From positions 684,501 to 748,500 of the forward strand of contig NZ_CP061035.1 of assembly GCF_016743815.1 (NCBI RefSeq): DNA of 64,000 nt. Direction: 5' to 3'. The number at the start of each line of letters is the position of its first letter. The first letter of the stretch is position 1. Position numbers and translations under genes: made by a program. The stretch is from Sphingomonas aliaeris (lineage in GTDB: Bacteria > Pseudomonadota > Alphaproteobacteria > Sphingomonadales > Sphingomonadaceae). The notes below the pieces were generated by a model. The model worked only from the letters and a program-made list of their open reading frames with translations, did no database searches and had not been told where the DNA came from. This document shows, one piece after another, positions 12,727 through 58,715 of the stretch.

Positions 12727-12805
12727 CCGTTCGTTTCGAGCGAAGTCGAGAAACAGGCCCCGCGGACCCCCGCAAAGGTTTCTCGACTACGCTCGAAACG
12801 AACGG
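12727..12805. repeat. family-A palindromic intergenic repeat, copy 1
   Basis: Arms CCGTTCGTTTCGAGCGAAGT at the left and its near-complement (CGACTACGCTCGAAACGAAC) at the right, about 27 bases each, with a variable 25-base centre. Four more copies occur in this window. Confidence 0.9.
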
Positions 12806-38865: not shown

Positions 38866-38960
38866 CCCCCCACCGTTCGTTTCGAGCGTAGTCGAGAAAC
38901 CCTATCGGCGGGCTGTGCGGCCTGTTTCTCGACTTCGCTCGAAACGAACGGTGGGGGGGC
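38866..38960. repeat. family-A palindromic repeat, copy 2
   Basis: Arms extended by C7/G7 runs: C7-ACCGTTCGTTTCG on the left and CGAAACGAACGGT-G7 on the right. Lies between convergent-facing ends of the reductase gene and the thiL start region. Confidence 0.9.
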
Positions 38961-38986: not shown

Positions 38987-40048
38987 TTACGGGATCAGGC
39001 GATCCGATCTCAACCGCGCGAACAGGTCGAAGAACGCGTCATCCGTGGGCTGGTAGGCGGTGAAGCCCATGCGGCGGCTTTTGCTCATGTCGGTGACGAC
39101 CTCGATCGGGCGGCCGAGATCGGCGTCGGTGTGCCATGGGGAGGCCAGGCGGGAGAGGTCAGGTTCGACCAGCCCCTCGCGCTCGGCGATGCGGCGCCAG
39201 ACGGGGGCGTCGTCGGCCATCTGTACCTCCAGCGGCCGCACGGTGCCGTCGAACGGCGCTGGTTCCAGCCCGAACCAGTCGGCGATGCGGCCCCACATCC
39301 AGCTCCAGCGAAAGACGTCACCATTGACGACGTTGAATGCCTCATCGCGCGCGGCGGGGGTGGTCGCGGCCCAGAGCAGGTGTTTCGCCAGCTGACGGGC
39401 GTCGGTCATGTCGGTCAGGCCGGACCATTGCGCGTCGGACCCGGGAAAGCGGAACGGGCGGCCGGTCTCGCGGCACAAGGTGGCGTAGACGGCGAGCGTG
39501 GTGCCCATGTTCATCGCATTGCCGACGGCCTTGCCGATCACCGTGTGCGGGCGATGCACGCTCCAGCCGAAGCCGTCGCGTTCCGCCGCAGCGAAGACCT
39601 CATCCTCCTGTGCGTAATAGAAATTCTCGATGTCGAGCCGGTCCTGTTCCTCGCGGAACGGCGTCTGGGGCAGGGCGCCTTTTCCGTACGCCTCGAACGG
39701 GCCGAGATAATGCTTCAGGCCGGTGACCAAAGCGACGTGACGCGGGGCGTCGTCGCCGCGCAGGCCGTCCAGCAGATTGCGGACCATCGCCGAATTGACG
39801 CGAATGTTCTCGGCCTCGCTGTCCTGTCGCAGCCAGGTGGTGATGAAGACCGCGTCGGGCGCTAGGCAGGACAGCGCTTCGGCGGTTGCCGCGGCATCCT
39901 GCAGATCGGCGACGACCGGGTGGACGCCGTCCTGTTCGAGCGGCTTTCGCGCGAGACCGTGAACGGTCCAGCCCTGTTCGTGCAGCAATGCCGCCGTCGC
40001 GCTGCCCACTATTCCGCTGCCGCCGACCACCAATGCCTTGCCTGTCAT
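38987..40048 (-). CDS. PRISE-type NAD(P)H-dependent reductase (SDR superfamily)
   Basis: A 353-residue short-chain reductase. It starts with the nucleotide-binding GGSGIVGS and carries the PRISE signature NFYYAQED (residues about 148-155), where the Tyr replaces the normal YxxxK motif. The founder plant enzymes reduce progesterone or iridoid enals; bacterial members reduce various enones. AAGGA before ATG supports the start. It lies between thiL and the IS110 element and is not part of the usual housekeeping order there, which suggests local gain. Confidence 0.75.
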   Translation of the reverse strand: MTGKALVVGGSGIVGSATAALLHEQGWTVHGLARKPLEQDGVHPVVADLQDAAATAEALSCLAPDAVFITTWLRQDSEAENIRVNSAMVRNLLDGLRGDDAPRHVALVTGLKHYLGPFEAYGKGALPQTPFREEQDRLDIENFYYAQEDEVFAAAERDGFGWSVHRPHTVIGKAVGNAMNMGTTLAVYATLCRETGRPFRFPGSDAQWSGLTDMTDARQLAKHLLWAATTPAARDEAFNVVNGDVFRWSWMWGRIADWFGLEPAPFDGTVRPLEVQMADDAPVWRRIAEREGLVEPDLSRLASPWHTDADLGRPIEVVTDMSKSRRMGFTAYQPTDDAFFDLFARLRSDRLIP

Positions 40049-40150
40049 ATCGTCTGTCCTTCGCCTGCGGGCCGAAGCCCGGGGAGCGGAGGTAACGATC
40101 GGCGGCGGGATCGTTCCCCGTGCGTGGCGAAATAGCTATGGTCGTAGCGG

Positions 40151-40195
40151 GGCTTGTCGAAGCGCCGGTCCTGCATTCCCGCCCTTCGACAAGCT
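40151..40195. repeat. left part of a family-C repeat split by the IS110 element
   Basis: Contains CTTGTCGAAG and its complement CTTCGACAAG in inverted order, then CT at 40194-40195 where the IS element begins. The missing part resumes at 41357 as CTCAGGACGAACGGGG. Confidence 0.8.
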
Positions 40196-40226
40196 TGTCT
40201 GTCTGGAATGGTGTAATCGGCAAGGT

Positions 40227-40385
40227 GCCTGAGCCGGGTGGCCACCCGGCTCAGGCGGCGGATGTGAGGCCGTTCGACAAGCCGGTCGACAAAGACCGTT
40301 CCTGAGCAGGGCCACATCCGTCTTCCCAAACCCCGGACAGTTGCCTGGGGCCGTGCTTACGGACCCCGCATGACAAGCTTGGGAG
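40227..40385 (+). ncRNA. bridge RNA of the IS110 element
   Basis: Three structured parts. First, a perfect 30-base palindrome (40227-40256) forming a 5' hairpin. Second, a target loop closed by GGATGTG (40260-40266) and CACATCC (40313-40319): its left guide TTCGACAAGC (40273-40282) equals the left flank 40185-40194, and its right guide TCCTGAG (40300-40306) is complementary to CTCAGGA at 41357-41363. Third, a donor loop closed by CCCAA (40325-40329) and TTGGG (40379-40383): guide ACAGTTGC (40337-40344) equals the right element end 41350-41357, and GACAAG (40372-40377) is complementary to CTTGTC at 40194-40199. In each loop a hairpin separates the guides. This matches the bridge RNA plan established for IS621. 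Exact 5' and 3' ends are not known. Confidence 0.85.
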
Positions 40386-40393
40386 ACCGGATC

Positions 40394-41347
40394 ATGTCAC
40401 ACTCCGACCTCTTTGTCGGCATCGATGTTGCCAAGGACGAACTCGTTATCCACGCTCATCCGGCAGGAATGCTCTGGCGGGTACCCAATACCAAGACCGG
40501 CATTGCCGCACTCGGCCGCAAGCTTGTCCGGCTTGCCGGTACGGCGTGCCTGCGGATCGGCTTCGAGGCATCGGGCGGTTACGAGCGCAAGCTCGCCATC
40601 CTGCTCGATCGGATGGACGTTACAGCCTATCTCCTCGATCCGGCACGCGTGCGCAGTTTCGCCCGTGCCGAGCGACAACTCGCGAAAACCGACCCACTCG
40701 ATGCGGCCGTCATCGCGCGGTGTCTGGCAGCACTGCATCCCGAACTGACGCCCTATGTCCATGATCCCGAGGCCGTGAGGCTGGCCGAGCATGTCCGCAT
40801 GCGCGATCTTGCCGTCGCCCAGGCGGTCCAGTTCGGCAATCAGTTGGAGAGCATCGCCGATCCCGCCATGCGCCGCCTCGTCGTCGCGCAGGTCGCACGG
40901 CTCAAGGCCCTGGTTCTGCGCATCGAAAAAGCCATTGCCAGCGTCATCGCCGCCTCGCCCGATCTGGCCGCTCGCGAAGCCCTGCTCCGCACAGCACCCG
41001 GCGTCGGGCCGGTCGTTGCCGCATGCCTGCTGGCACGCATGCCAGAACTCGGACGCCTCTCCAGTCGACAGGTCGCAGCGCTTGCTGGCCTCGCCCCCTT
41101 CGATCGCCAAAGCGGCAAGACCAGCCGGCCGGGGCGATGCTCGGGCGGCAGGCCCAGCATCAGACGTTGTCTCTATCTGGCCGCGCTCAGCATCGCGCGC
41201 TCGGGCAAGGGGCAACTCGCCGCTACCACCAACCGCCTGCGAGAGGCCGGCAAACCCTTCAAGCTTGCCATCGTCGCCACAATGCGAAAACTGCTCGTAA
41301 CCCTCAACGCGATGGTCAAAAACAATACCGAATATCGCACCGCGTGA
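40394..41347 (+). CDS. IS110-family transposase (bridge-RNA-guided recombinase)
   Basis: A 317-residue DEDD recombinase. RuvC-like site: D11 (VGIDVAK), E58 (GFEASGG), D100 and D103 (KTDPLDAAVIA). C-terminal Transposase_20 domain: RTAPGVGPVVAACLLARMPE and APFDRQSGKT with the likely catalytic Ser240. ATG 40394 has GGGAG at 8 bases. An in-frame ATG at 40370 lies inside the bridge RNA donor loop and was rejected. No frameshift, so probably active. The RNA overlaps the ribosome site, which may link translation to RNA folding. Confidence 0.95.
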   Translation: MSHSDLFVGIDVAKDELVIHAHPAGMLWRVPNTKTGIAALGRKLVRLAGTACLRIGFEASGGYERKLAILLDRMDVTAYLLDPARVRSFARAERQLAKTDPLDAAVIARCLAALHPELTPYVHDPEAVRLAEHVRMRDLAVAQAVQFGNQLESIADPAMRRLVVAQVARLKALVLRIEKAIASVIAASPDLAAREALLRTAPGVGPVVAACLLARMPELGRLSSRQVAALAGLAPFDRQSGKTSRPGRCSGGRPSIRRCLYLAALSIARSGKGQLAATTNRLREAGKPFKLAIVATMRKLLVTLNAMVKNNTEYRTA

Positions 41348-41356
41348 ACACAGTTG

Positions 41357-41373
41357 CTCAGGACGAACGGGGG
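41357..41373. repeat. right part of the split family-C repeat
   Basis: CTCAGGACGAACGGGGG, the right half of the repeat arm whose left half ends at 40195. CTCAGGA is the part paired by the right target guide of the bridge RNA. Confidence 0.75.
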
Positions 41374-41440
41374 GTGTGGGACGACGTTGTCGCTCTTCGA
41401 TAGATCGGCGGAAGCGCGGGATCTGGAGGTTCCTTTACCC

Positions 41441-41517
41441 CGCCCGTTCGTGCTGAGCCTGTCGAAGCACCTATCCCGTATTCCCTGCCCCCTCGACCAA
41501 CTAAGAACGAACGGGGG
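41441..41517. repeat. family-C palindromic repeat, second copy
   Basis: Left arm CGTTCGTGCTGAGCCTGTCG followed by AAGCACC; right arm is degraded (CTCGACCAACTAAGAACGAA). It shows the intact form of the repeat family targeted by the IS110 element, which lies only 70 bases away. Confidence 0.75.
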
Positions 41518-41535
41518 TCGACGTATCGCCTCGGA

Positions 41536-41712
41536 TCAGGTGTCGCGCTTGGCTCCGTCGAGCGTGCGGTCGCGTGCCGCCTGGGTTCGGGCGGTTGCGT
41601 CCCGCTCAGCCTTGGTGCGGCCGAACACCGCCCGGTTCGCGGCGGCGTCCGCCTCCTTCGTCGTGCGGGCCTTTGCCTTGCGGGCGAGGCGCAGGTTAAC
41701 GATGTCCGTCAC
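41536..41712 (-). CDS. DUF4169 small protein
   Basis: A 58-residue basic protein starting at GTG 41712: MTDIVNLRLARKAKARTTKE, then ANRAVFGRTKAERDA and a helical Arg/Ala-rich tail. IVNLRxARKxKAR and FGRTKAE are the DUF4169 marks. It begins two bases after the nusB stop, so it shares the his-nusB operon. Function unknown. Confidence 0.75.
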   Translation of the reverse strand: MTDIVNLRLARKAKARTTKEADAAANRAVFGRTKAERDATARTQAARDRTLDGAKRDT

Positions 41713-41714
41713 GA

Positions 41715-42182
41715 TCAGGCGCGAACGTCCTTGGCGATCGCGTCGAGCAGGCCGTTGACGAACCCGGCCTCGCGCTTGTCGAAAAAGGCGTGGGCGACGT
41801 CGACATATTCGGTGATGACGGTGCCGACGGGGACGTCGGGGCGCGCCATCAGTTCGTAGCTGCCGGCGCGCAGGATGGCGCGCATCGACTTGTCGAGCCG
41901 GGCGAGATTCCAGCCCTTGGCGAGCTTCGCGGCGATCGCGGTGTCGATCTCGTCCAGGCGGGCGGCGGTGCCCTTCACCACGTCGTCGAAGAAATCGACT
42001 TCGGCTTCCGCATATTCCGCATCCTCGATCGTCGCGCCGAGCCGGTGCTGGTGGAATTCGTGCAGCAGGGCGGTGATGGAGGTGCCCTCCATATCATGCT
42101 GGTATAGCGCCTGTACGGCGGCGAGACGCGATGCTGCGCGGGCCTGGCTGCGGCCCTTCGTGCGGGAATTGGGAGTGCTCAT
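41715..42182 (-). CDS. nusB: transcription antitermination factor NusB
   Basis: A 155-residue all-helical protein that binds boxA RNA with NusE in rRNA antitermination. Family marks: ARAASRLAAVQALYQHDMEG at the N-terminus, LDKSMRAILRAGSYEL and the end segment VITEYVDVAHAFFDKREAGFVNGLLDAIA. Follows hisD, separated by a family-A repeat, and precedes DUF4169. Confidence 0.95.
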   Translation of the reverse strand: MSTPNSRTKGRSQARAASRLAAVQALYQHDMEGTSITALLHEFHQHRLGATIEDAEYAEAEVDFFDDVVKGTAARLDEIDTAIAAKLAKGWNLARLDKSMRAILRAGSYELMARPDVPVGTVITEYVDVAHAFFDKREAGFVNGLLDAIAKDVRA

Positions 42183-42214
42183 GTGCGGTGCCTATAGTGC
42201 CGCTCGTCAAAAAA

Positions 42215-42300
42215 CCCCACCGTTCGTTTCGAGCGTAGTCGAGAAACCTGTGACGACCGTTGGGCCTGTTTCTCGACTACGCTCGAAACGAACGGTGGGG
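42215..42300. repeat. family-A palindromic repeat, copy 3, between nusB and hisD
   Basis: CCCCACCGTTCGTTTCGAGC on the left and its complement ending in GGTGGGG on the right. The right arm overlaps the last codons and stop of hisD. Confidence 0.9.
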
Positions 42301-43617
42301 GGCGTAAAGCGCAAGTCGAGCCGTATGGTGCGTTACAGACGCAGCGCGACCAGACTTCGCGTGCGCGGGCAGGCCTTCCGCCTCGGCCAGCGCGACGGCG
42401 GCGGGGCCGATTGCCGCGAGGGCGGCTTCGTCCAGTTGCAGGAAGCTGGTACGCTTCATGAAATCCAGCACGGACAGGCCGCTGGCGAAACGTGCGCGGC
42501 GGCCGGTGGGGAGGACGTGATTGGGACCGGCGACGTAATCGCCGATCGCCTCGGGGGTAAGTCGGCCCATGAAAACCGAACCGGCGTGGCGGACCTTGTC
42601 GAACAGGGCCTGTGGATCGTCGCATGCGAGCTGCAGATGTTCGGGGGCGAGGCGATCGACCAACGGGATCGCCTCATCGAGGCTTGCGGTGACGATGATG
42701 GCGCCGTTCGCGTCCCAGCTGGTGCGTGCGGTGTTGGCAGTGGCGAGTTGGCCGATCTGCATATCGACCGCATCCGCGACCGTGCGGGCGAAGGCGGCAT
42801 CGTCGGTGAACAGGATCGACTGGCTGGTGGGGTCGTGCTCCGCTTGGCTGAGCAGGTCGGCGGCGATCCATTGCGGGTCGTTGCGATCGTCCGCGACGAC
42901 GACGATTTCGGACGGGCCGGCGACCATGTCGATCCCGACCACGCCGTACAACTGGCGCTTGGCCTCCGCGACCCAGGCGTTGCCGGGGCCGGTGATGACA
43001 TCGACGGGGGCTATCCGCTGTGTACCGTAGGCTAGCGCGGCGATCGCCTGTGCGCCGCCGATCCGCCAGATCTCGTCCACGCCGGCGATGTGCGCGGCGG
43101 CGAGGACGAGCGGGTTGATCTCGCCGTCCGGGGTCGGGGTGACCATTGCGATGCGGGATACGCCGGCGACGCGCGCGGGGATCGCGTTCATCAGGACCGA
43201 TGACGGATAGGCCGCGCGTCCGCCGGGAATGTAGATGCCGGCCGCCTCGATCGCGTTCCAGCGTGCGCCCAGGCGGACGCCGGCATCGTCGGTCGTGTCG
43301 CTGTCCTGCGGGCGCTGCTTCTCGTGATAGGTGGTGATGCGGGCGGCGGCGAGGTCGAGCGCATCGCGCAGGGCGGGGTCGAGACCCTGATAGGCGGCGA
43401 GCCATTCGCTCTTTTCGATCCGCCAGCCGGTTTCGTTCGGATCGTGGCGGTCGAATTTCTTCGTGAAGGCGGCCAGCGCTGCATCGCCTTCGTCGCGGAC
43501 GCTGGACACGATGATCCGCACGTCGCGCGCGACGTCCGCATCCGCTTCGCGGCGGGCGTTGACGAGCGCGGTGAAGTCGCGGTCGAAGGCGGGGTCGGAT
43601 GTGGAGAGGGTGATCAC
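42277..43617 (-). CDS. hisD: histidinol dehydrogenase
   Basis: Last two steps of histidine synthesis (histidinol to histidine, NAD-dependent, zinc enzyme). Zinc and catalytic residues are seen in LLSQAEHDPTSQSILFT, APEHLQLACDD (catalytic Glu-His), GDYVAGPNHVLPTGR and GLPAHAKSGR. GTG start at 43617. The final residues APHRSFRA and the TAG stop are encoded by the family-A repeat, so the natural C-terminus has been replaced by repeat sequence; the family core is complete before it. Confidence 0.95.
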   Translation of the reverse strand: MITLSTSDPAFDRDFTALVNARREADADVARDVRIIVSSVRDEGDAALAAFTKKFDRHDPNETGWRIEKSEWLAAYQGLDPALRDALDLAAARITTYHEKQRPQDSDTTDDAGVRLGARWNAIEAAGIYIPGGRAAYPSSVLMNAIPARVAGVSRIAMVTPTPDGEINPLVLAAAHIAGVDEIWRIGGAQAIAALAYGTQRIAPVDVITGPGNAWVAEAKRQLYGVVGIDMVAGPSEIVVVADDRNDPQWIAADLLSQAEHDPTSQSILFTDDAAFARTVADAVDMQIGQLATANTARTSWDANGAIIVTASLDEAIPLVDRLAPEHLQLACDDPQALFDKVRHAGSVFMGRLTPEAIGDYVAGPNHVLPTGRRARFASGLSVLDFMKRTSFLQLDEAALAAIGPAAVALAEAEGLPAHAKSGRAASVTHHTARLALYAPHRSFRA

Positions 43618-43627
43618 GACGATATGT

Positions 43628-43705
43628 CCGTTCGTTTCGAGCGTAGTCGAGAAAGGGTTGCGGATCGCTGGGCGTCGGTTTCTCGACTTCGCTCGAAACG
43701 AACGG
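43628..43705. repeat. family-A palindromic repeat, copy 4, between hisD and hisG
   Basis: CCGTTCGTTTCGAGCGTAGT to its complement ending CGAACGG. It sits inside an operon, so it will be transcribed and can form a long RNA hairpin between hisG and hisD. Confidence 0.9.
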
Positions 43706-58644: not shown

Positions 58645-58715
58645 CCGTTCGCTTCGAGCGCAGTCGAGAAGCCTGCGCGCATCATCGGTTTCTCGACTTC
58701 GCTCGAAACGAACGG
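58645..58715. repeat. family-A palindromic repeat, copy 5, between mccA and MaoC
   Basis: CCGTTCGCTTCGAGCGCAGT to its complement ending CGAACGG. The last two G form part of GGAAG, the ribosome site of the next gene. Confidence 0.9.

Follow-up and report, generated by a model that had tools for sequence, protein, structure and literature searches.

The IS110-group element and its recombinase

The window, by which we mean the whole stretch of 64,000 nucleotides of Sphingomonas aliaeris DNA that was analysed, carries an insertion sequence in which a recombinase gene follows a long non-coding left end (Table 1). The offset of the element is ambiguous, GCT being common to 40193-40195 and 41356-41358. 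Its non-coding ends comprise 198 nt before 40394 and 11 nt after 41347, and a scan for exact inverted repeats between the terminal 45 nt at either end yielded a longest match of 5 nt. The longer upstream end, together with the lack of exact sub-terminal inverted repeats of 7-17 bp, assigns the element to the IS110 group rather than to IS1111.

The predicted recombinase matches both PF01548 (N-terminal DEDD RuvC domain) and PF02371 (C-terminal domain with a conserved Ser) above their curated cut-offs, and it matches NF033542, the NCBI model for IS110 family RNA-guided transposases, at 199 bits against a cut-off of 140. This domain pair and a length of 317 aa, inside the family range of 300-460 aa, identify it as an IS110 family protein. 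In a by-eye alignment, residues D11, E58, D100, D103 and S240 line up with the DEDD and Ser residues D11/E60/D102/D105/S241 of IS621, as numbered in the portion of PMC11208158 available to us, and the nearest solved structures are those of ISCro4 (9t56) and IS621 (8wt6). A further in-frame ATG, at 40370, would overlap the donor guide. We also observed a weak match of the middle region to a TIGR-Tas endonuclease model (25.5 bits, cut-off 100) and of the family profile to TasH structures (24 bits).

The S. aliaeris genome (4.26 Mb, 3 contigs) contains 10 full copies of the element, each with at most two substitutions over 1,163 bp relative to the window's copy. Compared over 80 nt per side, the outer flanks vary from copy to copy outside the repeats in which these lie. 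A search of a plasmid collection returned two weak partial matches, and a search of a viral collection returned none.

Table 1. Positions of the element, its predicted RNA domains and guides, its target and a second repeat family in the window
Feature	Position	Strand	Basis
Insertion sequence, 1,163-bp unit	40196..41358	+	10 near-identical copies with differing outer flanks
IS110 recombinase gene, 317 aa	40394..41347	+	PF01548 and PF02371, NF033542, IS621 and ISCro4 structure chains
Predicted 5′ hairpin, 13 bp, GGCC loop	40227..40256	+	Fold; two-sided changes in 4 of 13 pairs, 6 sphingomonad copies
Predicted target-binding loop domain, 10-bp stem, terminal hairpin 40283-40298	40257..40322	+	Fold, pair counts
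Predicted donor-binding loop domain, outer stem, inner stem 40347-40367	40323..40385	+	Pair counts
Predicted left target guide (LTG), TTCGACAAGC	40273..40282	+	Identical to left flank 40185-40194
Predicted right target guide (RTG), TCCTGAGC	40300..40307	+	Reverse complement of GCTCAGGA at 41356-41363, 8 nt
Predicted left donor guide (LDG), ACAGTTGC	40337..40344	+	Identical to right element end 41350-41357
Predicted right donor guide (RDG), GACAAGC	40372..40378	+	Reverse complement of GCTTGTC 40193-40199 at left end
Putative donor-loop handshake guide, CTTG	40378..40381	+	Would pair with target side of recombined left junction
Left half of interrupted target, CTTCGACAAG and core CT	40184..40195	+	CTTCGACAAGC in 10 of 10 copies; uninterrupted repeats elsewhere in genome
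Core CT and right half of target, CAGGACGAACGG	41357..41370	+	TCAGGAC in 9 of 10 copies, TCAGCAC in 1
TTTCGAGCGNAGTCGAGAAA repeat pairs	12734-12798, 38880-38944, 42227-42288, 43635-43698, 58652-58708

Predicted bridge RNA and its guides

The preliminary description of this DNA had proposed that the segment before the transposase gene, tnp, folds into a 5′ hairpin and two guide loops of a bridge RNA. The hairpin was recovered, and the segment 40227-40385 folds with a minimum free energy (MFE) z-score of -5.3 (0 of 200 shuffles equally stable); for the whole non-coding end, 40196-40393, z was -3.2. The predicted RNA has two internal loops beside the hairpin, placed open after the published family model; the MFE fold closes some of the guide bases. 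Across six sphingomonad copies, 99.2% of cells in five helices were paired, under a helix model drawn from one of the six copies scored. Two-sided changes occurred in four pairs, all within the 5′ hairpin, and helices 2-5, in the target and donor domains, had none among these six close copies. Folds of three of the five relatives examined (L039, L096 and L102) were no more stable than those of their shuffles. By analogy with IS621, the RNA is probably about 160-190 nt long.

An Rfam search of 39000-42500, with E up to 1, gave no bridge-RNA match; it gave five weak matches, four to miRNA families and one to RT-15, around the inverted repeat 42213-42395, none of them on the element. A strong sigma-70-like promoter was sought at the modelled junction of right and left ends (RE-LE) of the window copy and was not found; the best match there was weak, at 8 of 12 positions with a spacer of 15-16 nt (no control run). 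The corresponding junctions of relatives L039 and L040 matched at 9 of 12 positions with a spacer of 17. The circle junction of IS621 is reported to create a promoter (PMC11208160, as far as the accessible text goes).

All guide strings proposed in the preliminary description were found exactly where it had placed them, the RTG match extending over 8 nt instead of the 7 first given. The predicted RNA lies upstream of tnp, in the left end of the element, and the strand logic recognised earlier as that of IS621 holds in target and donor loops alike: the 5′ side of each loop reads as the top strand and the 3′ side as its complement. Extended guides fit the recombined junctions further, 40372-40381 matching CAAG|CTTGTC over 10 nt and 40300-40308 matching TG|CTCAGGA over 9 nt. 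The matches had also been said to converge on a CT core, which fits; since GCT is common to target and donor, the core may be either CT or GCT.

The same account had counted four independent matches. All four are present, but two of them are interdependent: owing to the palindromic left junction, GACAAGCTTGTC (GACAAG|CTTGTC), the RDG string is identical to the left flank as well. The reverse complement of 40372-40381, CAAGCTTGTC, is likewise present in the left junction, a match that the palindrome makes less independent. In relatives L034 and L036 the flank reads GACGGG/GACAGG, yet the RDG GACAAG and the left end CTTGTC are kept; these two elements separate the guide from the flank and thereby break the tie. 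Among 20,000 first-order Markov sequences modelled on 40227-40385, the guide strings (10, 8, 8 and 7 nt) arose at rates of 5e-5, 0.0031, 0.0029 and 0.016, respectively, and all four together in none (0/20,000), which agrees with the earlier judgement that their joint occurrence by chance is very unlikely.

Target repeat, site choice and covariation across relatives

The preliminary description had missed two things: the REP-like nature of the target, a genomic repeat, and the presence of ten copies of the element in the genome. All ten split the same point of a dispersed repeat, CTTCGACAAG^CT^CAGGACGAACGG or a close variant. The genome contains 128 uninterrupted sites within two mismatches of the repeat's 18-nt centre (23 exact), against 2 for a reversed control pattern. 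Of the 201 genomes sampled from the genus, 32 contain the exact 24-mer of the repeat, which is commonest in that of S. aliaeris (22 sites). In 20 fetched stretches of our own choosing, the repeat stands mostly as inverted pairs with a short linker.

The repeats vary at two positions, left CAAG/CAGG/CACG and right CAGGAC/CAGCAC, and the occupied sites are biased towards the letters that match the guides. Among the occupied sites 9/10 match at both letters, and among the unoccupied 22/89 do (Fisher p = 9e-5); the unoccupied pool consists of the 89 uninterrupted repeats fitting a 23-mer template and includes the partner arms of occupied pairs. Taken singly, the left letter matches in 10/10 versus 33/89 (Fisher p = 1.2e-4) and the right in 9/10 versus 33/89 (Fisher p = 1.7e-3). 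Against the 18-mer pool, both letters match in 9/10 versus 23/128 (p = 6e-6), and when L009, an occupied site one base off the 23-mer template, is left out of the both-letter test, p = 2.6e-4. These tests presuppose ten independent insertions, and four of the copies have a common linker.

An empty orthologous site was sought through the upstream gene in 61 genomes, 28 of which gave any match, many of them short and weak, and none was found. The REP core was present in 0 of 11 inspected loci of neighbouring species (L114-L124), so only paralogous empty sites of the same genome were used. One such uninterrupted site (L133) resembles an occupied site (L127/L016) in its outer flanks, consistent with clean insertion without target duplication.

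Two further observations concern the repeats of this genome. The repeat pairs at L127, L133, L137 and L144 apparently lie inside a longer, diverged repeated stretch found at several genome places, which reads roughly gcgatgacgtt...TAGAG.T.GA..GACCTTA. A second inverted-pair family, TTTCGAGCGNAGTCGAGAAA, forms five pairs in the window, with 10 sites within two mismatches where 0 are expected; its pair at 42227-42288 underlies the sub-threshold Rfam miRNA matches.

Searches for relatives of the element covered 201 genomes of the genus, of which 5 matched at E <= 1e-60, 397 of the family, of which 1 matched (the own genome), and, at E <= 1e-50, 289 of the class (18 matching) and 398 of the phylum (35 matching), as well as named genome contigs (25 loci); the counts for genus, class and phylum include the own genome. 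Scanning of 79 related loci left 53 that gave no donor-guide motif pair and stayed outside the covariation tests. From the other 26, five were dropped by eye as spurious (L037, L044, L047, L050 and L108) and six as already counted (L076 and L084 from the own genome; L077, L085, L078 and L086 as duplicates), giving 15 relatives and, with the window's copy, 16 elements. Because relatives were selected by a left donor guide matching the right end, that guide was kept out of the permutations. Protein identity to the window's recombinase, measured over the longest aligned segment, is 81-88% for L033, L034 and L038 and 32-41% for the other 12.

Target guides covary with flanks across the 16 elements, and several relatives fit their flanks only in part. 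For the RTG, we searched the target-loop region for the reverse-complemented right flank, reading away from the core. The matched lengths summed to 112 versus a permuted mean of 66 (0/5,000 as high), and to 93 versus 52 (0/5,000) in the 13 elements that remain once the three close sphingomonads are set aside. Such matches include GGGAGAGC for flank GCTCTCCC (L040), CAATAAGC for flank GCTTATTG (L088) and GTAGGAGC for flank GCTCCTAC (L095); the weakest matches, 5 nt each, are those of L033, L067, L102 and L105. For the LTG, the totals were 122 versus 93, and 100 versus 75 without close relatives (0/3,000 each), in fixed search intervals that left out the left flank of L088 and truncated the LTG of L105. 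At the handshake position, described for IS621 in the available part of PMC11208158, the base following the RDG is complementary to the last target base ahead of the core in 14/18 elements, a count reached in 11 of 20,000 permutations; with close relatives excluded it is so in 10/13, a count reached in 170 of 20,000. The letters were read by eye, and the misses are L035, L063, L096 and L102.

The expectation of the preliminary description that guides track flanks in relatives is borne out by these permutation results for both target guides and fails in individual elements. The close relative L038 keeps the CAAG guide, yet its flank is CTTCGACTTTG; the left guide mismatches in L034 (guide CAGG, flank CGGG) and L035 (guide CAGT, flank CAGG). 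The recombinase gene of L033, which lies on the same contig as G126, contains four stop codons.

Interpretation and relation to known IS110 systems

We hold with high confidence that the insertion sequence belongs to the IS110 group and that the non-coding end upstream of its recombinase gene encodes a bridge RNA guiding insertion into the REP-like repeat. The identity of the recombinase, an RNA placed upstream of tnp, the order and strand logic of the guides and their covariation with flanks all argue for the bridge RNA first proposed, and on this comparative evidence the assignment is well supported. By analogy with IS621, the RNA would be expressed and bound by the recombinase. Its first internal loop would pair with both strands of the repeat, CTTCGACAAG-CT-CAGGAC, and its second loop with the joined right and left ends of an excised circle (ACAGTTG-CT-TGTC). 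The DEDD/Ser recombinase would then exchange strands at the CT core by the same chemistry, so that the circle would land at one fixed point of a guide-matching repeat.

Other explanations were weighed against this one. That the matches merely reflect chance in a repeat-rich, GC-rich region might be suggested by the commonness of REP-like strings in the genome and by the palindrome that ties one of the four matches to another; given the Markov control and the covariation of guides with flanks in relatives (RTG, LTG and handshake), we rejected this reading, whose probability is next to negligible. It is also highly improbable that the recombinase recognises the repeat by protein-DNA contacts and that the guide-like strings are captured REP relics. 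The target repeat is common enough in the genome for similar strings to arise by capture, but a captured REP would have both halves in one sense, whereas the element has a sense left half and an antisense right half flanking a hairpin, and divergent relatives with other flanks have the same arrangement matched to their own flanks. On these two grounds the captured-relic reading was rejected.

A more serious, though still unlikely, alternative is that occupied repeats spread by duplication or recombination, in which case there were fewer than ten insertion events and the site statistics within this genome are inflated. Four of the ten copies (L127-L130; G000:C1 57631, 1728652, 3226887 and 3650570) adjoin an identical repeat-pair linker, and all 4 guide-matching arms beside that linker hold a copy, as against 5 of the 27 found elsewhere, L009 being one of the five (p = 0.004, post hoc). 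Against such spread stand the outer flanks of the ten copies, which differ over the 80 nt compared, and the cross-species covariation, which is independent of the ten copies. Two empty pairs with the exact linker of the four copies (L125 and L126) were also observed, with arms that do not fit the guides. It seems very unlikely that repeat pairs already bearing the insertion sequence moved as units, the repeat family spreading its own parasite; the one hint of such co-movement is again the identical linker beside four copies.

Guide-directed insertion, our preferred reading, makes this genome a natural test of targeting: it holds about 100 near-identical repeats (89 unoccupied and 10 occupied) that differ at two positions contacted by the guides, with the ten occupied sites in line with the guides. 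With this element the IS110 family gains a sphingomonad member whose bridge RNA can be read and, after E. coli, Pseudomonas and Sinorhizobium, a further host lineage with REP-like targets. The preliminary description knew of no account of it, and no sphingomonad case of such an element was among the papers listed (15 of 313 for one of the searches), which cover few subscription journals.

As far as the accessible portions of the cited papers describe them, several known systems are close. Bridge RNAs with REP targets were reported in IS110 elements by Durrant et al. 2024 (PMC11208160), with guide covariation over 5,511 target pairs and a bridge RNA predicted for 85.7% of elements of the IS110 group; under the name seekRNA, target selection guided by RNA was described for IS1111 and IS110 elements (PMC11187229). 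IS621 of Escherichia coli, of the IS110 group, resembles the window element in its DEDD and Ser recombinase, CT core and REP target (Durrant 2024, PMC11208160; Hiraizumi 2024, PMC11208158), and in a bridge RNA upstream of tnp that runs from 5′ hairpin to target loop to donor loop with the same guide sense logic. The window element differs from IS621 in its REP family and guides, in its diverged protein (phmmer 85 bits) and in its modelled circle junction, where the promoter match is weak. ISCro4 (PDB 9t56) was compared by its recombinase, which is the nearest solved IS110 recombinase by sequence. The IS110-family elements ISPa11, ISPpu9, ISPpu10 and ISRm19 also target REPs, with 6/6, 7/7, 7/7 and 4/4 copies, respectively, in host REP (Tobes and Pareja 2006, PMC1525189); their hosts are Pseudomonas and Sinorhizobium and their REP families are others, and ISPa11 further differs in belonging to the IS1111 group, with its RNA downstream (PMC11187229). 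The window element is a new example of a known mechanism and not a new mechanism, bridge RNAs and REP targeting by IS110 elements having already been published.
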